Part shown: piece by piece, positions 22,491-40,442 of the stretch
How the letters are laid out: the number at the start of each line of letters is the position of its first letter
Numbering within the stretch: the first letter of the stretch is position 1
Assembly: GCA_947564735.1 (NCBI GenBank)
Contig: CANOEC010000007.1
Coordinates: 62,001 to 126,000 of the forward strand
Reading direction: 5' to 3'
Source of the DNA: an uncultured Lachnospiraceae bacterium
GTDB lineage: Bacteria > Bacillota > Clostridia > Lachnospirales > Lachnospiraceae
DNA length: 64,000 bases
Position numbers and translations under genes: made by a program
The notes under the pieces: generated by a model
Told to the model about the DNA's origin: nothing
The model's input: only the letters and a program-made list of their open reading frames with translations
Database searches by the model: none

Positions 22491-25259
22491 TTATTTACCT
22501 CCCACCATCTCATTTAGGATTACCTTGACCTGATGGAAATCAAACATATCGTATGCCTCGCGCAGCCTTTTTATCTGTCCGTTTATCTTTGTACCAAAGT
22601 TCTTGGATGCCAACTCTGGTACAAGTTCGTCTGTCACCTTAAGATTCATCTTGTCTAACTCTGTCTTAAGTCGCTGCAACATTTCCACCGTCATCTCTTC
22701 TACTTCTTTCTCCTCCAGATTCTGCTCCGACCGCACATCGCTGAACTTCCCGATGCTGGTAAGATAATTTTTTACTTCCTCCAAAATCAGCTTAAACTTA
22801 TCCAGATATCCGGAAAATTTCCGGTTAATCAACGTTAAGTCGCCTGCTTTTCCCGCAAATTCCAGTTCTTTAAAAAGCGCGGACACTTCCATTGCACCGA
22901 TGCTTGCACTCGAGCTCTTAATCCCGTGCACATCGGTCGTAAACAGCTGGAGGTCGCCAACTTCCAGAAGATTCGGTAACAGCTCCAGATATTTGACTCC
23001 TTCCGCATAGTAAGTATTCAGAATGGCAGCATATGCGTCCTGATTAAATCCAATATTCAACAGACCCTTTTCTGTATTCAGCCCGCTCTTTGGCTTTGCT
23101 TCTTCCCCGCCTGCCGCCTGCTTTGTCTGTCCCTTCTTCTCTCCGGAATCCTTCGTCTTCACATGCTCAATCAACTCTTCCGGCAAAAATTCCAGCAGAC
23201 ACTTTTCCAGATAACGCCTTTTAATCGGCTTAGCAAGATACTCTTGAAAACCAAGCTTTAAAATCTCCGTTCTGACATTGGCGCCGTTTTGTGCCGTCAG
23301 CGCCACAAAGGGTATCTCCTTATAATACCGCCCTTCCTTGGCACGGATTGTCCTTAAAACATCATCCCCGCGCAGCCCCGGCATCACGATATCCATCAGG
23401 ACAAGATCATAGTTTTCGCTCTCAATCTTTTTAATGCTTTCCTCACCGCAGGTCGCCACGGAAATGTCGATGCCATATTTGCCAAAAATGCCGGCAGCAA
23501 CTTTCAAGTTGACCGCATTATCATCCACCACAAGAACCTTTGCGTTCTTAGCCGTAAAAATCTCTTCTCTTGCCGCCTTTTTATAATCTTCTTTGTTCCA
23601 TCTGTGGTTCAGCACTGTAGAAATGGTAATGCATGAAAAAGGTCTGTGAATCAGACGGCATTTATCAAAATCACCATAAACCGCATCGTAGCCTGCCATA
23701 ACATAGGTATACTCTTCACATTGATACAGAGCGATAATATTGGACAGATTCGCATACACTTCATCAGGCACAAAAATATAATCGAAATGCTTATCCTGAA
23801 TGGCATGGTCGAATCCGTAATAATTGCGGACATATGTGGGTCTGACATCAAACGGCTCCATTGTTTTATGCCATTTTTCGACGGTAACATCATTATCCGC
23901 ATATACAAGCACACTCGGCTTTTTTTCGTCCTCCAACCGTATCATAGACGCCGCATCCGCAATTTTCTGCCGAAACGTAAAAGTTGTGGACAAACCGATT
24001 CCTTCAATACTCTCTACCTTAATGTCGCCCTCCATCATAGCAAGCAATTCCTTACAGATTGTAAACTTAAGCCCGATACCCTTTAAATTACTGGACTGTC
24101 TGGAATCATAAATATCATACATGCCAAAAAGCGACCGCACGTCAATCTGCGACAATCCCTTTCCCGTATCCGCTACCATACAATGAAAGGTCGCCGTTTG
24201 CTCCTCATCATCCCGCTCGCATCTGACTTCAAGATGAATCCGCCCACTCTCGGTAGAATCAATCGAAATAAACAACAGATTGAGGAATATCTGACGTATC
24301 ATGATACCGTCACCAAACAGTTGTTTCGGTATATTGCCGTCAATATCCATATCAAGATTCAGTTTCTTATTCTGCAGTTCTTCTGAAATTGTTCGGACAA
24401 TTTCTTTCAATAATTTTTCAAAACCATACGCCTCATCCAGCGGATGCATCTCTCCCGCATCAATCTTTGCATAGGTGAGCACATCGTCAATAATGGTGAG
24501 CAAGTCATACGCAGCGCTTCTGACAGTTCTGACTGCGCTCCTCGTCTCATCATCCTGCTCCCCCTTCAACATAATCTCCGACAAACTAATAATGGAGTTC
24601 ATCGGCGTCCTGATTTCAAAAGACATATTTGACAGAAATTGTCTCTTGGCAGCCCCTGCACGCTCAATCTTACGGCTGCTGCATTTGATTTTCTGCTGCT
24701 GACGCAGATAAAATTTCTCTTGGATATAGATGAGCAACATGATAAAAAAGACTGTCCCGATAAAGCTAATAACTAAATCGGAAAAATAGAATTTTTGGTT
24801 TACATAATGTTCTATCCCTTCTTGCGGGAAAAAAACGCTGCTATACAGATAGCAATACTCAAAGGTAAACATCACCAAAACAAACAGAAACATCAATCCC
24901 TCAAAAACGGAATATACAATAATCATACTGGCTAAAAACCACATAATCGCAACACAATAAGCAACATTTCCCAGTCTAAGAATCATGGGAATTGTGATGC
25001 CGTCCAGTATTATCAGGGTCAGCACTGCCGTCAGATTATGCTTTCTGTAACGTATGTTTAAATACAAAAGCGTACCGCACCCAAATATAATAACGCACAT
25101 AGGCGCCGCCAGCCTCTCTATCGTCCCTGCAATCGCGACAATGGGCAGTATGACAATGCCTTCCACAATAACCATTGCAAGAAAGAGATTCAGATTAAAT
25201 TCAGTAAGTCCCATACCGCTTATTTTTTTGCTTAATATGTGATGCAGCTTACTTTTCAT
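22491..25259 (-). CDS. Degenerate hybrid sensor kinase: membrane domain, HisKA without the His, HATPase, two receivers, Hpt
   Basis: A 922-residue protein. The N-terminal 190 residues hold about six membrane segments. In the HisKA-like region the H-box reads NMSFEIRTPMN: Phe (codon TTT) replaces the phosphorylated His. The ATPase domain keeps DTGKG and GIGLK, but its N-box (NLLFISIDST) lacks the second, catalytic Asn. A degenerate receiver-like domain follows, then a complete receiver (VLVVDDNAVN, phosphoacceptor in LVLMDIVMPG, Lys in LAKPIKR) and a C-terminal Hpt domain with DVHGIKSSSASIGA, His present. The start at 25259 follows GAGG and overlaps the upstream kinase gene by 11 bp. It probably cannot autophosphorylate, but could relay phosphate through its receiver and Hpt. 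Confidence 0.85.
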   Translation of the reverse strand: MKSKLHHILSKKISGMGLTEFNLNLFLAMVIVEGIVILPIVAIAGTIERLAAPMCVIIFGCGTLLYLNIRYRKHNLTAVLTLIILDGITIPMILRLGNVAYCVAIMWFLASMIIVYSVFEGLMFLFVLVMFTFEYCYLYSSVFFPQEGIEHYVNQKFYFSDLVISFIGTVFFIMLLIYIQEKFYLRQQQKIKCSSRKIERAGAAKRQFLSNMSFEIRTPMNSIISLSEIMLKGEQDDETRSAVRTVRSAAYDLLTIIDDVLTYAKIDAGEMHPLDEAYGFEKLLKEIVRTISEELQNKKLNLDMDIDGNIPKQLFGDGIMIRQIFLNLLFISIDSTESGRIHLEVRCERDDEEQTATFHCMVADTGKGLSQIDVRSLFGMYDIYDSRQSSNLKGIGLKFTICKELLAMMEGDIKVESIEGIGLSTTFTFRQKIADAASMIRLEDEKKPSVLVYADNDVTVEKWHKTMEPFDVRPTYVRNYYGFDHAIQDKHFDYIFVPDEVYANLSNIIALYQCEEYTYVMAGYDAVYGDFDKCRLIHRPFSCITISTVLNHRWNKEDYKKAAREEIFTAKNAKVLVVDDNAVNLKVAAGIFGKYGIDISVATCGEESIKKIESENYDLVLMDIVMPGLRGDDVLRTIRAKEGRYYKEIPFVALTAQNGANVRTEILKLGFQEYLAKPIKRRYLEKCLLEFLPEELIEHVKTKDSGEKKGQTKQAAGGEEAKPKSGLNTEKGLLNIGFNQDAYAAILNTYYAEGVKYLELLPNLLEVGDLQLFTTDVHGIKSSSASIGAMEVSALFKELEFAGKAGDLTLINRKFSGYLDKFKLILEEVKNYLTSIGKFSDVRSEQNLEEKEVEEMTVEMLQRLKTELDKMNLKVTDELVPELASKNFGTKINGQIKRLREAYDMFDFHQVKVILNEMVGGK

Positions 25260-27375
25260 AATTTTCAGCCTCTTCATCTCCGTTTACTGTATAGATAATC
25301 TTCTCCTTGGGAAGACACTCTCTCAATATCTTCTCGAACTTATCACGCTCAATCGGTTTGGAAAGATATTCATCAAATCCCGCATCCAGAAACATCTCCC
25401 GCGCACCGCTGACCGCATTCGCGGTAAGCGCTGCGATTGGTACCGCATCAAGCCCATTTATCCCCAGCATCCTGATATTCTTTAACGTATCAATGCCGTC
25501 CATCTCCGGCATCATGTAATCAAGAAATATAAAATCAACTTTCTCCTGTTGCAGCATTTTCAAGCATTCTTTGCCACTGGCAGCAACGAAAACCTGCGCC
25601 TGATAGCGTTTCAACAGACTGGTCGCCACTTCCAAATTCACGACATTGTCATCCACCACCATGATGCGTGCATCTGGACAGACAAATGCCCCCTTGTATC
25701 CGACCCTGCGGATTGTGGTGTTCTGCTTGTCTTTCAAAAGCGCATCCATATTCAGGCAGCTGACCGGACGCGCAAACGTAGTCTTCACAAGCGCATCATC
25801 ATCGGCAAGCGGATCCGAGCCTATCAAAATAATGGATTGCGGCTTTAACAGCTTCGTGAGCCTGTCTTTCACAGCATTATAACGTTCTGCTGCAATCATC
25901 AGATGCGTATAACTGGTATCTGTACACTCTTCCATGAAGCATTCGTCCGTATCCGCCTGACAAAATTCCACATCCAAATCCTGCAGCGTCTTGGCAAATG
26001 CCTCCCTCTGCCGTCTCGTATGTTCATAGAATAATATTTTAAATCTTTTATTCTCCTGTCTGCCAACCAGAGTCCCTCCTGCCATATATCTTTGCGGAAT
26101 ATCAAAAGAATAGGTTCGTCTGGTGGGTTCTTCTTCCATGCGCAATTCTCCGCCCAGAAGCTTAATCAGCCGCTGCGGCAGAGGCATCATTTCGTCGATT
26201 TTTGACTCTACATTTATGCGGCACAACTGTTCTTTGTAGGAATGATGAAAAACCCCTTCGGCGCACACCTCCACACACAGCCGTATCTGCTCTTCACCGC
26301 CGTCCTCTTTACCGATGTTGATGGATAATACTCCCCCATCTTCCAAAGATTTCATGATACCGCTTAAAATATTTAATAATATCTGGCGTATCATTGTCTC
26401 GTCCCCGCACAACTGCGCCGGGATATCCGGTGCAATCTGCACAAACAGCTCTGTCCGGCAATCCGCATAGCGCACAGAGAGCATATTGATTAATTCGTTA
26501 CAGATAGCTCCAATATCATAAGGTTTCTCTGCAATCACCAAATCACTGTCATCCAGTTTGGAAAAATCCATCAATTCATTTGTAATAGACAAGAGCGCCC
26601 TGCTGGAATTAGCAATATGATAAGCATTCTCCCTTACGCGGTCCTGTGTGTCTAAATCGAGCAAAAGCTCTGTAATCCCTAAGATTGCATTGAGCGGCGT
26701 CCTGATTTCATGGGACACATTCACCAAAAACATATTCTTGGCATAGCTTAACTGCTCGGCTTCCTGCTCCATGGCGGTACTTTTCTCTATTTCTCTGCGA
26801 AGCACTTTATTGCGGTATGAAATCAATATACCGCACACGGTGCCCGTAATAAACAATGCCACCATAATCCTGCAAAAAAGAACAGCGTCATAGTGCGTGC
26901 TTCCTTCCGCTGCCGCCACGGACACTAACTCCGACAGTGTTGACTGTTCAAACATATACCGGATACAGATAATATCCACCACCACATCCAGCGTAATAAA
27001 TAACGCTGCCCATTTTTTTCTAAGAAGGATTGCCGTATACGCAATCCCCGTCAAAAAATACACCGGATAATCATATACCGCATAGGGCACATAAAAAGAT
27101 GTGGCAGGTATCAGAATAAGATGCATGAGAAAAAGATAGACGACTGAAATCATGTTCAGCTTATCTGTCCTGCGCTCCGCATACATTGCCGTAAGTGTCA
27201 GCACAATGCCGCCCGCCAGAAGAACCGGCACGCGGATGTCTGTCCGCAATAGCAGCGCAAAGAGCAACAACATAAAACACTCCAAAACGCCGAGCACCAT
27301 TGCCACATGAAACAGCAGGATTTCCGCTGGCAGTTCTATATCCAAATATCTTTCCAAATGCTGTTTTGCTGTCAT
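25249..27375 (-). CDS. Hybrid sensor kinase with intact H-box but degenerate ATPase domain
   Basis: A 708-residue protein. Residues about 15-190 hold about six membrane segments. A coiled linker leads to HisKA with a full H-box, NVSHEIRTPLNAILG. The ATPase-like part is eroded: the N-box is LLNILSGIMKSLED (the second Asn is Gly), and no DxGxG or GxGLGL glycine box is found. A receiver-like region (ILFYEHTRRQREAFA) lacks the acidic pocket. The C-terminal receiver is complete (IMVVDDNVVN, FIFLDYMMPEMDG, LSKPIER). AAGGAG 7 nt before 27375 fixes the start; an ATG at 27402 would lie within the upstream gene. The layout matches the next gene, suggesting a duplicated pair with divided functions. Confidence 0.85.
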   Translation of the reverse strand: MTAKQHLERYLDIELPAEILLFHVAMVLGVLECFMLLLFALLLRTDIRVPVLLAGGIVLTLTAMYAERRTDKLNMISVVYLFLMHLILIPATSFYVPYAVYDYPVYFLTGIAYTAILLRKKWAALFITLDVVVDIICIRYMFEQSTLSELVSVAAAEGSTHYDAVLFCRIMVALFITGTVCGILISYRNKVLRREIEKSTAMEQEAEQLSYAKNMFLVNVSHEIRTPLNAILGITELLLDLDTQDRVRENAYHIANSSRALLSITNELMDFSKLDDSDLVIAEKPYDIGAICNELINMLSVRYADCRTELFVQIAPDIPAQLCGDETMIRQILLNILSGIMKSLEDGGVLSINIGKEDGGEEQIRLCVEVCAEGVFHHSYKEQLCRINVESKIDEMMPLPQRLIKLLGGELRMEEEPTRRTYSFDIPQRYMAGGTLVGRQENKRFKILFYEHTRRQREAFAKTLQDLDVEFCQADTDECFMEECTDTSYTHLMIAAERYNAVKDRLTKLLKPQSIILIGSDPLADDDALVKTTFARPVSCLNMDALLKDKQNTTIRRVGYKGAFVCPDARIMVVDDNVVNLEVATSLLKRYQAQVFVAASGKECLKMLQQEKVDFIFLDYMMPEMDGIDTLKNIRMLGINGLDAVPIAALTANAVSGAREMFLDAGFDEYLSKPIERDKFEKILRECLPKEKIIYTVNGDEEAENYEK

Positions 27376-27388
27376 TCCGGAACTCCTT

Positions 27389-28453
27389 TTATCCGGCAAC
27401 ATTCTTTATCTCACTCTCAACGGACAGGAAAATGTCTACAATCTCCGGATCAAAACATGTAAATTTCATAAATTTTATCTTCATAATCGCTTCCTGATGA
27501 CTGAGCGCCTTGCCGCCCACCGCAATATTGCGCAGATTATCATAAGTATTGACAACCGCCAAAGCCCGTGCTTCTATCGGAATATTCTTTCCCTCTAATC
27601 TGTCCGGGTATCCTTTGCCGTCCCATCTCTCATGATGGCTGCGGCACATATTGTAGGCATAGTTCATAAAATTGTTTTCTCCCGCGCTAAGCTGCGTTAC
27701 TTTGGAGAGCGTGTCCGCGCCCAGAGTCGTGTGCGTCTTGACCGCTTCCTTTTCAAACTCACTCTCGTTTCCCATGCGCGTATTGTTTAAATACTGATCT
27801 GCAATGCACAGTTTACCAATATCATGAATCTGGGACGCAAAGCATATCGTAATACCATCATCCGCCGTCAGATTGTGCTTGCCGTTTCTGATAATCGCAC
27901 TAATCAGCACATCCATATACTTTTCTGTTCTTCTCGCATGGTCGCCGCCAAAGCCATCCCTCTTGGTCAAAAAATCTACAAACATTGCCACAATCGAGTA
28001 CTGTAACTCCAGATTTTTCTTGTTCTTGTCCTGTACAAGATTATTGAGGGAAAGGTTCATCTCGCTTAACTTCCTCTGCTGTGCCAGAAGCCGGATCTGA
28101 ATATCCACACGTTTCTTTAACAGATTTGCCGTGTAAGGCTTTTTGATATAATCTACCGCACCCAGATTATAGCTTTCAAGCTCCGTAGTATCATCGTCCT
28201 GCGCAGTCAGAAAGACAATCGGTATTTTGACCAGCTTCGGATTATTCTTCATCTCCGAAATAACCTGAAAACCGTTTACATTGGGCATATCCACATCTAA
28301 CAGAACCAAATCCGGGAGTTCCGGCATATCATTTAAACATTCCAGCGCGGAAATACCGGATGAAACCGGAATCACCTCATATTCCTCCTCCAAAGTTTTC
28401 CTCGCCATAATCAGATTTGCCATGTTGTCGTCTACAATCATTACCCGATACAT
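27389..28453 (-). CDS. Response regulator with HD-GYP domain (RpfG-like, predicted c-di-GMP phosphodiesterase)
   Basis: A 354-residue regulator. The receiver (1-125) has VMIVDDNMAN, the phosphoacceptor Asp in LVLLDVDMPNVNG and Lys in YIKKPYT. A coiled linker of about 30 residues leads to the HD-GYP domain (about 150-345), with IHDIGK, HTTLGA and HHERWDGKGYPDRL, so the metal-site residues are present. It should cleave c-di-GMP under control of phosphorylation. The ATG at 28453 sits after AAGGGG; the GTG just before it is less well placed. It ends 13 bp before the first hybrid kinase, whose ribosome binding site lies within its last codons. Confidence 0.9.
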   Translation of the reverse strand: MYRVMIVDDNMANLIMARKTLEEEYEVIPVSSGISALECLNDMPELPDLVLLDVDMPNVNGFQVISEMKNNPKLVKIPIVFLTAQDDDTTELESYNLGAVDYIKKPYTANLLKKRVDIQIRLLAQQRKLSEMNLSLNNLVQDKNKKNLELQYSIVAMFVDFLTKRDGFGGDHARRTEKYMDVLISAIIRNGKHNLTADDGITICFASQIHDIGKLCIADQYLNNTRMGNESEFEKEAVKTHTTLGADTLSKVTQLSAGENNFMNYAYNMCRSHHERWDGKGYPDRLEGKNIPIEARALAVVNTYDNLRNIAVGGKALSHQEAIMKIKFMKFTCFDPEIVDIFLSVESEIKNVAG

Positions 28454-28524
28454 CACTTCACCCCTTATTCGTTATATTCTATCCGCAGAAAGCATACGCT
28501 TTCCCGCCGCATCATGCAGCCGCG

Positions 28525-29721
28525 TCATCTGTTCGCCATCAGTTTTATCATTGCCTGATTCAAACCGTCCACTGTCAGCTTATACATCGGAAACAGTCCT
28601 TTGATTGCCGTTTCGGCTTCCCGCCACGGCGCATGTCCCGGCGCCATCTTCGGATTCATCCACACAATCTTCTTATAATGCCGTTTCATCAGCATCAGCC
28701 ATTCCATCCCTGACAATCCGCCATTTGGTCCTCTGTAATTTCCTGTCGTGGAATACAGCTCTTCCGGCGCCATCGCCGCGTCTCCGACAATAATCACCTT
28801 GTAGTCGCTGTCCAGATTACGGAACATCCACTCCGTCTCAATCCAGTCTCCGTTCTCACATTCCGGCGTATGATACAGATGAGAATAAATGCAGTTGTGG
28901 AAAAAGTAAGTTTTCACATCTTTGTAGTGATTGGATTTATACACAGAATGGAACAATTCATTCAAAAGCGTGGTGTACGGAATCATGGTGCCGCCGGAAT
29001 CCATAAGAAGCAGAAGCTTTACCGCGTTCTTCCGGGGCTTCTCCATTACAATCTGCAGACATCCGCCATTGTTGCACGTCGCGTCCACAGTGCCATTGAT
29101 ATCCAGCTCCGTCTTCGGAATCTCAAGCCTTGTAGAGAACTGGCGCAGTTTCCTAAGCGCCATCTGGAACTGTCTGTTATCTAACACCTTGTCATTACGG
29201 AAATCACGGTATTTCCTTGCACCGATGACCTGAAATGCCGATTGGTATCCAGTCGTTCCGCCTACTCTGATGCCGCCCATATTACCGCCCATGTTGCCAA
29301 ACGACGTCTTTCCCATCGTTCCAATCCAGTAACTTCCGCCGTTATGCTCCTCGTTCTGGTCCCTCAGTCTGTCCTTAAAGTTATTCTCCACGTCATCCTT
29401 GTCCATCGTGACCACTTCCTGATTCATCTCATGCCGCATTTCCTCAAAGACTTCCTGCATCTCCGGTTTATCAAGCCAGCGCATCATGTTCTTACCCACT
29501 TCGTTCTCAGACTGGATTCCCTTAAAGACTTCGTCAAAAGCCATATCAAATTTATCATATTCCGTCTCGGACTTGACCAGTATCATCCGCGCCACGTAAT
29601 AAAATTCCGTCAAGCTGCTATGACACAGTCCCTGCTGCAGCGCCTCCTGTAATGTCAGCCATTCGCTTAAGGACACATCAAGCCCTTTGTCTTTTAAGGT
29701 ATAAAAGAATTTACTGAACAT
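28525..29721 (-). CDS. VWA-domain protein (CoxE-like), partner of the MoxR ATPase
   Basis: A 398-residue soluble protein. The C-terminal half is a von Willebrand A-type domain with a modified metal site, LLLMDSGGTMIPY (DxGGT in place of DxSxS), and a later IIVGDAAMAPEE. The middle has a Gly/Met/Asn-rich stretch (FGNMGGNMGG). It belongs with the CoxE/YehP-like proteins that pair with MoxR AAA+ ATPases to insert metals or remodel complexes. GAGG precedes the ATG. It lies 16 bp after the ATPase gene. The target complex is not visible; the next genes downstream are the HD-GYP regulator and two hybrid kinases. Confidence 0.82.
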   Translation of the reverse strand: MFSKFFYTLKDKGLDVSLSEWLTLQEALQQGLCHSSLTEFYYVARMILVKSETEYDKFDMAFDEVFKGIQSENEVGKNMMRWLDKPEMQEVFEEMRHEMNQEVVTMDKDDVENNFKDRLRDQNEEHNGGSYWIGTMGKTSFGNMGGNMGGIRVGGTTGYQSAFQVIGARKYRDFRNDKVLDNRQFQMALRKLRQFSTRLEIPKTELDINGTVDATCNNGGCLQIVMEKPRKNAVKLLLLMDSGGTMIPYTTLLNELFHSVYKSNHYKDVKTYFFHNCIYSHLYHTPECENGDWIETEWMFRNLDSDYKVIIVGDAAMAPEELYSTTGNYRGPNGGLSGMEWLMLMKRHYKKIVWMNPKMAPGHAPWREAETAIKGLFPMYKLTVDGLNQAMIKLMANR

Positions 29722-29737
29722 ATCATATCCTCATTAT

Positions 29738-30562
29738 TTAGAAATCCTTCTTGTTCCTGACCGTCTCCAAATCTTCATCTTTCTTAACGACCACACCGAT
29801 AAAGGGCAGCTCCGCCCGCAGCCTCTTTGTCGGGATTCCGCCAATCTGCAGCGCATTGATCCAGTCAATCAGCTCCGATGTGCTGGGTTTCTTGCGAACA
29901 TCCTTCAGTGAACGTATCCAGTAAAAGACTTCCATTGCATCGTGAAGCAGCGTATCCTCCACATTAGGATAGTGTGTCCTGACAATCTCCTCCATCAGAT
30001 TCTGATCCGGGAAATCAATGTAATGAAAAATACACCTGCGAAGGAACGCATCCGGCAGCTCCTTCTCCGCATTTGAAGTGATAATTACAATCGGTCTGTG
30101 CTTTGCTTTCACAGTACGCTTCGTCTCGTGGATATAAAACTCCATCTGGTCTAACTCCCACAAAAGGTCATTTGGAAATTCAAGGTCAGCTTTATCAATC
30201 TCATCAATCAGAAGAATGACCTGTTCGTCAGACTCAAACGCCTCACCCAGTTTACCCAGCTTAATATAATGGGCGATATCGTCAACGCCTTCCTCGCCGA
30301 ACTGTCCGTCATACAGACGCTGTATGGTATCGTACATATAAAGACCATCCTGCGCTTTTGTCGTAGACTTGATATTCCAGATAATCAGTTTTTTCCCCAG
30401 TGAGTTTGCGACCGCCTGCGCGAGCATCGTCTTCCCCGTACCCGGCTCCCCCTTTACAAGAAGCGGCTTTTGTAATGCAATTGCGACATTAACGCTCGCA
30501 AGAAGCTGCTCGGATGCCACATAATCCGACGTACTGCCAAAACTCTTATTTTCTTCGCTCAT
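29738..30562 (-). CDS. MoxR-family AAA+ ATPase
   Basis: A 274-residue ATPase. Walker A is GEPGTGKTM (about residue 38-46), Walker B is VILLIDEIDKAD, sensor 1 lies in IVIITSNAEKELPDAFLRRC with the arginine-finger stretch. This layout is typical of MoxR chaperone-like ATPases that act with a VWA partner. The start at 30562 (MSEENKSFGS) follows AAAGGATAGGGG; a longer in-frame start has no better site. It is the first gene of the five-gene block and has a promoter overlapping that of metF on the other strand. Confidence 0.88.
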   Translation of the reverse strand: MSEENKSFGSTSDYVASEQLLASVNVAIALQKPLLVKGEPGTGKTMLAQAVANSLGKKLIIWNIKSTTKAQDGLYMYDTIQRLYDGQFGEEGVDDIAHYIKLGKLGEAFESDEQVILLIDEIDKADLEFPNDLLWELDQMEFYIHETKRTVKAKHRPIVIITSNAEKELPDAFLRRCIFHYIDFPDQNLMEEIVRTHYPNVEDTLLHDAMEVFYWIRSLKDVRKKPSTSELIDWINALQIGGIPTKRLRAELPFIGVVVKKDEDLETVRNKKDF

Positions 30563-37681: not shown

Positions 37682-40369
37682 TTACTCCTTTGCCAGCGGG
37701 AATGTCAGAATCACCTTAAATAAATCCCCGTCCAGCTGAATCTCAAAAGTACCCTTCTGAGCTTCCGTCAGATTCTTGGCAATGGATAATCCCAGCCCGC
37801 TCCCTTCTGTCGTCCTTGATTCATCTCCTCTGATAAACCGCTCCGTCAGTTCATCCGGATTGCAGTTGAGCGGAGATTCCGATATATTCTTGACAGCCAG
37901 CGCGATATAACCTGCATGTTCCGGGAAACTGTCAATCGTCAGATAAACGCGCGTGCCTTCCATTGCATACTTAAAAATATTGTTGAACAAATTCTCTATC
38001 ACACGCCAGATTCTCCGGCTGTCCGCCTCAATCACCGCATTCGTCACGTTGACATTCATGACTGTCGTCAGATGCTTTTGCTCAAATTTCTCGGAAAACT
38101 CCCCGATTGTCTGATTCATCAATTCTGTCAGATTAATCTTTTCAAAATGCAGATTGATATTTCCGGAAGAAATCTTGCTGGCTTCCACAAGGTCATCCGT
38201 CAACTGTTTCAAGCGCTGTGACTTTTCATCGAGCACACGGATGTAATTCTGTACCTTCTCATTATCAACCTGCTCTCTCTTAATTAAGTCTACATAGTTG
38301 ATAATGGATGTGAGCGGCGTCTTGATATCATGGGATACATTCGTAATCAGATCGGCTTTCATACGCTCGTCTTTCATGCTGATCTCCACTGCATCTTTAA
38401 TTCCCTTGCCAATACTATTCACCGAATGCGCCAACGTCAAATTGTCACCATGCAGATTATCCGTATTCACCTGATATTCTAACTGTCCGCCCGCAATCGA
38501 CTCAATTCCATTCACAATCCCCTGCTTTTCTTTCGCATTCCGGTAAATCATATTTCCAATAAGACCATCCAATGCAACTGCAAACAAAAGCGTGATGCCG
38601 CTTCCGATTCCGTCCGCCGCAAATGCACCCAAGAGCAAGATAAAGTTGAACAAAAGAAAGCACCCGTAAGGAACCCATGTCCTAAGCACAATATTGCCGT
38701 TATCATACACTTTCCATGCAAACTGCTTCATCTTGCGCACCAATCTGCGCAGATAGCTGTTCTTCCACAAAGTCCGCGCCTTGATTCTTCTGGCGAAACT
38801 GTAAAAAAAGAACATCATAACAGCGTCCGTCACAAAAGCCCCTGCCGCCAGTAATCCTTTAAACCATTCCTCATAGAGCACGCCTTCCGACGCCGATACA
38901 ATATCTCCGGGACTGATATTTGTCAATTCAATCACCACGATCAATACCCATACGGCTAAAATCATGGCGCCTGCTGCAATGAGAACCGCCACTTCCGTTG
39001 GCACATGTTCAAAAGATTCCAGACGGATATATGGTCTTCCTTCCTCATCCACATCCCTGCCGGCTGTCATTGTCAGATAGAACAGCAAAACCATATACAA
39101 GCCAAGCGACGCTATTGCCACCGCTATCCACTGCCAGAAATGCGGCGTATAATTTCCATATCCCGTAGCTCCCTGCGTAAACACATCGGATACCGGATAT
39201 GTGGTATCGACATTAATCCATATCTTTACGCTTTCCGGATAGGCGTAGTCATAGCTGTTCAATATTTCCCTGACGGTTTCTTCCGCAATGGTCGTGTTGG
39301 TCTGATAAACCATCTCCGACGGACTGTAATAAATATACTTGCCCTCTTTACTGATTAATTCATAGAGATAATCTGTTTTCTCCCCGGACTCCATAGACTC
39401 CGTTACACGCTCCAGTACATTCTTATCTTTCAGATTGCTGTAGAGCTGTGTCTTATCCGCCACTGTCTTCATAATCACATAGGACACGTTGGAGTTCTTC
39501 GGATGAAAATATTCTCCGTAATCCAGATACTCTTCATAATTATAGGAAAGACTCTGCGCAGCATTCTGTACATTATGACATAAATCATAGTACAACTCCC
39601 AGTCAGAGACATATTCTTCCAGATTTTTCCCCTCTGCAGTCTTATAGCGGTTAACCATAATATGGTAGGAATCTGTCTCTTCTTCCGTATATTCTTCGTC
39701 TTCCTCCCAGTATGTCTCGTCATCGCCCGTATCCACCCATAACTGATTGGCAGACACATCGTTCACGAACGTGTAGGACTCCACATCGGACTTCATATAA
39801 CTGGCATCGGACGTATTGTAATATCCACTCTTCGGATCGATGACGGTCACCCGTGTCTTATCTGCAAGAAATGCCCCTGCCTGTGCCAGCGTCATATTCG
39901 TGTTCGTCCATTCAAAACCATAGTTCGCCCATTTGAGCAGATCGCCCAGCTCATAATCTGCCGTCACATATTGTTCCGGAAGCCCAATATCACGATAGTT
40001 ATATGCCGTGACATCAATCACCTTGCCGCCGTCAAAACTGCCGTCCGTCTCCAACTGGCTTCTCACGACACCGTACCGGATAATATCCGCAACCGCATAT
40101 CCGAAGATACCGTTAAACACATCGGATTCCTCATAACGCTCCCCTTGATACCGGTATCCCATATCAAACCTCAGAACGCTGTTCCTAAACCCGCCAATCT
40201 CCACAAGTGAACCACATGCCACTATGAAAACAGCAAGCGCAAGAACGGCAAAGGAAACATGCTGGAGAAAGCAAAGCATCCTCCGCACTATCCGGCTCGG
40301 CTTTTTTTGTCTTTTCGGTCTTCTTTCCCTTTTTTCCTTTACCTTTTTTTCTTTCTCTTCTTTTCCCAT
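37682..40369 (-). CDS. Sensor histidine kinase with large extracellular domain
   Basis: An 895-residue kinase. A basic cytosolic start (Lys/Arg/Glu-rich, 1-35) precedes a membrane segment (about 40-62). A large external domain of about 350 residues, rich in Tyr, Asp and Glu, comes next, then five to six further membrane segments (about 420-630). The cytosolic end has a HAMP-like linker, HisKA with NVSHDIKTPLTSI (phosphorylated His), and HATPase_c with ENLFNNIFKYA and GSGLGLSIAKNL. The G1 box is replaced by KNISESPLNCNPDEL, as in other kinases of this Gram-positive class. GGAGGAAGAG precedes the ATG at 40369. Its partner regulator lies 73 bp upstream. The signal is unknown. Confidence 0.88.
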   Translation of the reverse strand: MGKEEKEKKVKEKRERRPKRQKKPSRIVRRMLCFLQHVSFAVLALAVFIVACGSLVEIGGFRNSVLRFDMGYRYQGERYEESDVFNGIFGYAVADIIRYGVVRSQLETDGSFDGGKVIDVTAYNYRDIGLPEQYVTADYELGDLLKWANYGFEWTNTNMTLAQAGAFLADKTRVTVIDPKSGYYNTSDASYMKSDVESYTFVNDVSANQLWVDTGDDETYWEEDEEYTEEETDSYHIMVNRYKTAEGKNLEEYVSDWELYYDLCHNVQNAAQSLSYNYEEYLDYGEYFHPKNSNVSYVIMKTVADKTQLYSNLKDKNVLERVTESMESGEKTDYLYELISKEGKYIYYSPSEMVYQTNTTIAEETVREILNSYDYAYPESVKIWINVDTTYPVSDVFTQGATGYGNYTPHFWQWIAVAIASLGLYMVLLFYLTMTAGRDVDEEGRPYIRLESFEHVPTEVAVLIAAGAMILAVWVLIVVIELTNISPGDIVSASEGVLYEEWFKGLLAAGAFVTDAVMMFFFYSFARRIKARTLWKNSYLRRLVRKMKQFAWKVYDNGNIVLRTWVPYGCFLLFNFILLLGAFAADGIGSGITLLFAVALDGLIGNMIYRNAKEKQGIVNGIESIAGGQLEYQVNTDNLHGDNLTLAHSVNSIGKGIKDAVEISMKDERMKADLITNVSHDIKTPLTSIINYVDLIKREQVDNEKVQNYIRVLDEKSQRLKQLTDDLVEASKISSGNINLHFEKINLTELMNQTIGEFSEKFEQKHLTTVMNVNVTNAVIEADSRRIWRVIENLFNNIFKYAMEGTRVYLTIDSFPEHAGYIALAVKNISESPLNCNPDELTERFIRGDESRTTEGSGLGLSIAKNLTEAQKGTFEIQLDGDLFKVILTFPLAKE

Positions 40370-40442
40370 CTCTTCCTCCACGCACATGCTTTTGTGCCCG
40401 TAAGTCCAATTCTGCGGGGGACATGAGACATGCGTCCTCCGT

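Follow-up and report, generated by a model that had tools for sequence, protein, structure and literature searches.

Within a 64,000-nucleotide stretch of an uncultured Lachnospiraceae bacterium (assembly GCA_947564735.1, contig CANOEC010000007.1, positions 62,001 to 126,000 of the forward strand; hereafter the window), two adjacent genes encode membrane hybrid histidine-kinase-like proteins, here called A and B, that have lost different parts of the kinase machinery. B keeps the phospho-acceptor histidine of its HisKA domain but lacks the canonical residues of its catalytic ATP-binding (CA) domain, whereas A has lost the histidine and keeps most of its CA residues, the N-box asparagine excepted. 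This complementary loss is evolutionarily coupled, holds across the genus clade and belongs to the lineage, not to the strain, and no recognisable entry point for ATP is left in the window's genus. We give about an even chance to the reading that the pair is part of a conserved phosphorelay run that descends from a pair like RcsC/RcsD or FasB/FasC, in which B would now be a phosphotransferase, A a pseudokinase with an Hpt domain, and the phosphate would come from outside.

Complementary loss in kinases A and B

22491..25259, minus strand: kinase A, a hybrid histidine-kinase-like membrane protein with HisKA, HATPase, pseudo-receiver, REC, Hpt and C-terminal helices, from the open reading frame (ORF), Pfam and orthologues
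24618..24620, minus strand: TTT codon, encoding Phe where A would have its phospho-acceptor His (20 of the 25 genus orthologues have Tyr)
23970..24380, minus strand: A's CA domain, in which Ile (codon 24267-24269) stands for the N-box Asn while the G1 Asp, the G1 Gly and two G2 Gly are retained
23187..23543, minus strand: A's receiver domain, Asp kept (codon 23391-23393)
22758..23084, minus strand: A's Hpt domain, His kept (codon 22926-22928)
25249..27375, minus strand: kinase B, a hybrid histidine-kinase-like membrane protein with HisKA, a decayed CA, pseudo-receiver and REC, from the ORF and Pfam
26710..26712, minus strand: CAT codon of the phospho-acceptor His in B (the residue is present in 71 of the 71 B proteins covering it, out of 72 rows)
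26077..26478, minus strand: decayed CA domain of B, which has lost the N-box Asn, the G1 Asp and the G2 Gly pair; a Bergerat-like set of strands and helices is still predicted
25306..25668, minus strand: B's receiver domain, Asp kept (codon 25519-25521)

Longer ORF readings are possible for both genes (A to 25277, B to 27402), and the orthologue matches mostly start near 25259 for A and at 27375 for B. The two proteins are paralogues, sharing 25% identity over 671 columns.

B has VNVSHEIRTP as its H-box and a glycine at the N-box position. Pfam finds HisKA and Response_reg in B and no HATPase_c, and neither the G1 aspartate nor the G2 glycine pair is present, in agreement with an earlier note on the window, made from the letters alone, which had described B as keeping SHEIRTP with its ATP-site boxes lost. 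Among genus B proteins, the histidine is kept in all 24 that cover it and both the N-box asparagine and the G1 aspartate are lost in 25/25. The receiver aspartate is kept in 70/70 B proteins covering it.

In A, the H-box reads SNMSFEIRTP, with phenylalanine at the phospho-acceptor position. The earlier note had read this TTT codon correctly, together with DTGKG, GIGLK, a full receiver, an Hpt and the missing N-box asparagine of both proteins; the phenylalanine, however, is the window's own variant, as the 25 genus proteins have Tyr in 20, His in 2, and Gln, Asp and Phe in one each. A matches Pfam HATPase_c at 7e-14 with DTGKG and GIGLK retained. All 25 genus proteins keep the first two G2 glycines and, in G1, both Asp and Gly; their N-box asparagine is replaced by Ile in 20 and by Val in 5. 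The third G2 glycine position is Lys in the genus and in g230, a group of herbivore-gut Lachnospiraceae, and Glu in the other genera. The receiver aspartate is kept in 66/69 and the Hpt histidine in 63/63 A proteins covering these positions, the Hpt itself barely passing the Pfam cut-off (24.8 vs 24.6 bits).

Two further features of A were observed. In its ATP lid (window 24066-24110), genus A proteins share the stretch YDSRQSSNLKG(I/V)GLK almost without change. Residues 855-928 (window 22494-22715) form a helical C-terminal domain after the Hpt, for which no Pfam family scored above cut-off; these helices persist in the g230 locus L067 (by length the same contig as L205) although the Hpt is lost there.

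A strain mutation or an assembly error was rejected, since the losses hold across the genus clade. In the orthologue alignment, restored residues appear only in distant pairs (B's N-box asparagine in 41/69, A's histidine in 40/69) and not in the window's 21-pair clade. Decay towards pseudogenes has a negligible probability: catalytic residues have been lost, as it would predict, but the frames are open, gene order is conserved and the median dN/dS over the domains of A and B spans 0.06 to 0.40 (NG86 within the genus; dS is near 1, so the values are rough), and we rejected it on dN/dS. Median values were 0.10 for HisKA, 0.11 for CA, 0.08 for REC and 0.06 for Hpt in A, and 0.13 for HisKA, 0.31 for CA and 0.09 for REC in B, with a mean identity within the genus of 0.73 for A's CA and 0.44 for B's CA. 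Selection in the genus fits complementary loss, with A's CA constrained and B's CA relaxed.

AlphaFold2 predicts a confident Bergerat-like core with a weak lid in both CA domains, and the nearest solved structures by Foldseek include ShkA, GacS, RetS and DivL. For the kinase region of A, the match to DivL 4q20_B has a TMt of 0.76, and those to RetS 6dk7/6dk8 reach 0.84. Most genus A proteins (20/25, the window's own having Phe) resemble DivL of Caulobacter in having Tyr for His, and A resembles it in the predicted retention of the HATPase fold; A differs in the loss of the N-box asparagine and in a partner that is itself kinase-dead here, and DivL is not known to have a REC or Hpt. The tyrosine that most genus A proteins share with DivL (excerpt of PMC4211667) and the structural resemblance to DivL and to RetS, a regulator of another kinase, speak for a DivL-like scaffold or sensor, in which both HisKA-CA modules would do no more than read the phosphorylation state of a receiver or control a third kinase by contact. 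We regard this as very unlikely, given that the REC aspartate, the Hpt histidine and B's HisKA histidine are conserved as if used in phosphotransfer. One alternative in the earlier note, that both proteins are pseudokinases acting as scaffold or phosphatase, nevertheless comes closer than the split active site discussed below, but in its pure form it fails to explain the invariant histidine of B.

Coupled loss across the kinase pairs

We compared 69 B/A pairs from Lachnospiraceae, drawn from the window's genus, from g230, g217 and g77 and from one genome of a fourth further genus (L170), and scored a CA domain as altered when at least one of the N-box Asn, the G1 Asp, the G1 Gly and the first two G2 Gly was replaced. 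L137 and L139 were dropped as generic kinases, and L058-L060, L062-L065 and L067-L069 because their contigs match L195-L197, L201, L203-L207 and L160 in length. The pair counts leave out L066, which lacks B, and L014, L034 and L171, which lack A. They also leave out four further g217 loci with the VWA gene of the run described below (G548, G524, G550, G519), a partial one (G518), and two g230 loci with short flanks (G505, G511). Some rows are near-identical (L198-L200, L214/L215, L011-L015), and pair counts are therefore not event counts.

B's CA is intact in 36 of the 69 pairs, and A's histidine is present in all 36 and lost in none. B's CA is altered in the other 33, with A's histidine lost in 29, where Tyr, Phe, Asp, Gln, Asn, Met, Leu or Gly replaces it, and kept in 4 (L030, L031, L207, L227). 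A's own CA lacks at least one canonical residue in 68/69 pairs, and which one differs by lineage; the A protein of L170 alone has all five residues checked. The N-box asparagine of A is Ile or Val in 15/15 g230 pairs, 13 of them with an intact B, its G1 aspartate is gone in 24/24 g217 pairs and its first G2 glycine in 4/4 g77 pairs. Among the altered-B lineages, A's G1 aspartate is Glu in L221, L226 and L227, and its first G2 glycine is altered in L172, L193 and L194. B's lesions are milder beyond the window's genus, mostly in the G2 box (L160, L207, L194, L221, L227), and all boxes are lost only in L226. In the three g77 loci with A's histidine lost and B's CA altered (L172, L193, L194), A's REC aspartate has also become Asn, and B's REC aspartate is kept.

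On an IQ-TREE tree built from the MoxR and VWA proteins of the run for 67 pairs (L033 and L061 have no MoxR and VWA), loss-only counting gives six alterations of B's CA and seven losses of A's histidine. All seven losses fall on B-altered branches, which make up 32% of the tree length; the chance of this, if losses follow branch length alone, is ∼4e-4, assuming a uniform rate and one rooting. In the window's clade, L030 and L031 combine a decayed B with an A that still has its histidine, so that B's CA was most simply lost first.

As A's histidine was lost only where B's CA is altered, and survives beside a defective A CA wherever B's CA is intact, the pattern is most simply explained by B's CA having phosphorylated A's histidine in trans. 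FasB and FasC, which are not known to be hybrid kinases with REC and Hpt, offer a parallel of two kinase-like proteins from one locus, one proposed to charge the other's histidine, and this is the logic we propose for the ancestor; unlike there, the active CA is gone too in the window's genus. FasC of group A Streptococcus has been proposed to be a pseudokinase whose DHp histidine is phosphorylated by FasB (excerpt of PMC12675982), and a laboratory-evolved ChrS variant is a further pseudokinase partner in the excerpted literature. Judged from residues, the coupled losses speak for a possible FasB/FasC-like heterodimer in the ancestor, with one of two adjacent kinases supplying the CA and the other the histidine.

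The earlier note had offered, as one reading of the complementary loss, a heterodimer in which one protein supplies the ATP site and the other the histidine. As a natural split site, this would be an obligate A/B heterodimer in which A's CA, without its N-box asparagine, binds ATP and charges B's histidine, leaving A's histidine and B's CA dispensable. The loss is indeed real, genus-wide and coupled, and several observations agree with this idea: A's G1 and G2 residues are retained throughout the genus, its CA is constrained while that of B is relaxed, B's histidine is invariant, and A adjoins B in the genus wherever the contig continues. In every lineage seen, B's histidine moreover remains after B's CA has been altered and may have a phosphate source other than its own CA, and FasB/FasC lends support to the existence of kinase heterodimers (excerpt of PMC12675982). 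However, the N-box asparagine, which coordinates Mg, is highly conserved and takes part in phosphoryl transfer (excerpts of PMC10017428 and PMC8292422), is Ile or Val in every genus A protein. It is also gone throughout g230, the sister group, where B is mostly intact, so that it was most simply lost before B's CA, and the other altered-B lineages have their lesion elsewhere in A's CA, which shows no repair following the alteration of B's CA. Because of the missing asparagine, a split-active-site heterodimer of A and B is unlikely. It is rather unlikely, too, that in an obligate, asymmetric heterodimer A's CA charges B's histidine by a new ATP chemistry, after one of two reciprocal trans reactions was dropped in several lineages.

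HisKA was matched 52 times in the window's genome, counting A and B, and we read 20 of the other loci, picked mainly for long frames. The N-box asparagine and the G1 box are present in 20/20 and the histidine was seen in 19 (the H-box of L129 lies outside the printed frame), with the first G2 glycine altered in two (L125, L131). A further membrane kinase in the window, at 37682-40387, has SHDIKTP, the N-box asparagine and GSGLGL, but no DxG in its G1 box (VKNISES); the L137 and L139 kinases share its H-box and have no detected G1 box. Since L125, L131 and the kinase at 37682-40387 have altered residues, single deviations do occur outside A and B, but among the kinases read, loss of the histidine, or of all boxes, was found only in A and B.

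The conserved gene run and its HD-GYP regulator

29738..30562, minus strand: MoxR/MadB-like AAA ATPase, first gene of the run
28525..29721, minus strand: VWA protein (CoxE/MadC-like, weak model matches)
27389..28456, minus strand: HD-GYP response regulator (REC and HD-GYP), probable output

The genes lie in the order MoxR ATPase-VWA-HD-GYP regulator-B-A, all on the minus strand, and may form a single transcript. B is present in 26/78 genus genomes (E<=1e-90); an A orthologue adjoins it in 25 of these 26 carriers, and in the 26th (G091) the contig stops after B. The order of the five genes is constant across genus loci as far as the contigs reach. Scanning genomes with an alignment of A gave relatives in the g230 group of herbivore-gut Lachnospiraceae (L058-L069), with A ∼40-44% identical, and the HD-GYP gene, B and A occur together in 9 of these 12 loci; L067 and L068 are without the HD-GYP gene, and the short contig L066 carries A alone. 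The run is thus kept in the genus and also in its herbivore-gut relatives. The window and L067 share flanking genes, which we take to be der, plsY, gpsA and tyrS, and the two loci are for this reason considered orthologous.

MoxR and VWA (window 28525-30562) form a two-gene module that is wider than the kinase pair. Within the genus, identity to the window's proteins is at least 87% for MoxR and at least 84% for VWA, and the NCBIfam MadB and MadC models match the two proteins below cut-off. VWA occurs in 76/397 family genomes, usually without these kinases. Of 60 VWA loci fetched, several of them cut by contig ends, B-A adjoins in 5 (L160, L170, L172, L173, L175) and a single kinase in 1 (L171), and we rejected MoxR-VWA as a strict marker of the pair on this count. 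L171 has a lone canonical hybrid kinase after MoxR-VWA, with no A and no HD-GYP gene, an arrangement that is possibly close to the state before the kinase pair arose.

The HD-GYP regulator has its REC aspartate, HDxGK and HHExWDGxGYP, and the latter two motifs recur among the 12 commonest variants per motif (61 sequences), one of which has GFP. The genome also has 27 GGDEF matches, which makes cyclic-di-GMP signalling plausible. In 5/13 g230 loci (L198, L199, L200, L204, L205) the HD-GYP gene and A's Hpt are jointly absent, with MoxR, VWA, B and the rest of A kept. These five loci form one clade on the tree, so the joint absence is probably one event, and it suggests that A's Hpt serves the HD-GYP receiver.

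Proposed phosphate flow and related systems

Judged by their motifs, A, B and the regulator appear to have the residues for a flow from a kinase histidine to REC, to a partner Hpt and on to a regulator. A precedent for a kinase with an inactive-core Hpt partner is RcsC/RcsD (excerpts of PMC13317618 and PMC5651002), where, as in the window, a membrane hybrid kinase with REC and without Hpt (B) stands beside a kinase-like partner with Hpt (A) and a response regulator, there RcsB. Unlike that system, the present one is from a Firmicute, its output is an HD-GYP protein and not a transcription factor, and A has its own REC; RcsC is moreover an active kinase, whereas B in the window's genus is without an ATP domain. 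The NCBIfam equivalog cut-offs were not reached either, with 92 vs 634 bits for A on the RcsD model and 148 vs 920 for B on the RcsC model.

In the reading we favour, the ancestral B would have been an ATP-using kinase that also charged A's HisKA histidine, which needs a B/A heterodimer, and A, bearing REC and Hpt, would have fed the HD-GYP regulator. B's ATP domain would then have decayed first in the window's genus, and A's histidine, no longer phosphorylated, would have been lost afterwards. B may now be a kinase-derived histidine phosphotransferase, like PhyT, Spo0B and ChpT, and A a pseudokinase with Hpt, like RcsD and DivL. Phosphate would reach B's histidine from a source outside the putative operon and pass through B's REC and A's Hpt to the HD-GYP receiver, so that the relay might tune cyclic-di-nucleotide breakdown.

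The phosphotransferases PhyT and PhyP are membrane anchored, with the histidine kept and the CA domain degenerate (excerpt of PMC5898713). Like them, and like Spo0B and ChpT, which are also kinase derived with a kept histidine and a degenerate ATP domain, B has the corresponding residues and a predicted fold of this kind, but it differs in its own REC, its multi-helix membrane part and its pseudokinase partner. GacS is an active kinase, and RetS and GacS are not known to be an operon pair. Both are among the closest solved kinase cores after ShkA, and excerpted accounts describe the control of one kinase by contact with another.

Because B's histidine persists in every lineage seen in which B's CA has been altered, it is probably charged by something besides B's CA. 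The nearest candidate donor would be A's CA, but its lesions argue against catalysis, and a putative outside donor is therefore favoured. The losses of the ATP-using parts run in step across a whole lineage, with most other relay residues kept, and the relay thus seems to need a phosphate source from outside.

The flow could also be reversed, the pair draining the HD-GYP receiver of phosphate by way of A's Hpt and a REC and releasing it, or acting as a HisKA phosphatase, with no forward flow. In other systems neither route is known to need a HisKA histidine, but that of B is present in every B protein covering it, and the threonine four residues after the histidine position (H+4) is replaced by Ile in two genus A proteins (L016, L017). 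On the other side, the window's gene run has no canonical CA, genus A proteins have the HisKA glutamate at H+1 in 25/25 and the H+4 threonine in 23/25, and RcsC with RcsD works as a phosphatase (excerpt of PMC5651002). We find this drain rather doubtful.

Several observations weigh against the reading of B as an externally charged phosphotransferase and of A as its pseudokinase partner. No outside donor was found, one candidate kinase having been examined, the canonical hybrid kinase C29 (L128) of the same genome. L128 as a single obligate donor was rejected, as it has no match at E<=1e-120 in 6/26 carriers (G014, G020, G073, G074, G078, G097); its matches are only 36-48% identical in 5 more carriers, and it matched 65/78 genus genomes overall. 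A's CA is well conserved in the genus for a functionless domain. Some of the B proteins with milder lesions may still be active, because the first G2 glycine is likewise altered in two kinases of the window's genome that otherwise look normal. On the tree, a two-lesion criterion leaves 6/7 losses on altered branches, with P of 0.002 vs 0.0004; the exception is L221, a borderline case with one G2 lesion in B and A's histidine already lost. An independent-pairs test gave a median p of 0.25, its 5 supported pairs (on average 3 in the same direction, 0 opposite and 2 without difference) being too few for significance. As to the output, the first Asp of DxYD in the HD-GYP domain, presumably a metal ligand, is Asn in the window and in most of the 12 commonest variants. 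In g77, where the neighbourhood was searched, B-A has no adjacent HD-GYP gene in 4/4 loci, yet A keeps its Hpt in 4/4, so that Hpt and HD-GYP are not strictly tied. Finally, the Rcs structures speak against a 1:1 complex of RcsC with RcsD (excerpt of PMC13317618), and the likeness to Rcs therefore does not by itself lend a B/A heterodimer support.

Among the open-licence PMC papers listed in our searches on this gene run, on pseudo-histidine kinases, kinase heterodimers, Rcs, Spo0B/ChpT and Lachnospiraceae hybrid kinases, no title or abstract opening described the MoxR-VWA-HD-GYP-kinase run, and we also found there no description of a hybrid-kinase pair whose kinase half repeatedly loses its ATP site yet keeps its histidine. 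The pair amounts to a repeated natural experiment, as in six lineages, by loss-only counting, B lost canonical ATP-domain residues and kept its histidine, and the histidine of its partner went only there. This pattern is genetic evidence that B once phosphorylated A in trans. It raises the questions of how a phosphorelay survives without its own kinase and of whether a pseudokinase ATP domain catalyses without the N-box asparagine, for which the pairs with an intact B provide an active control, while the loci without Hpt and HD-GYP bear on the choice of partner.

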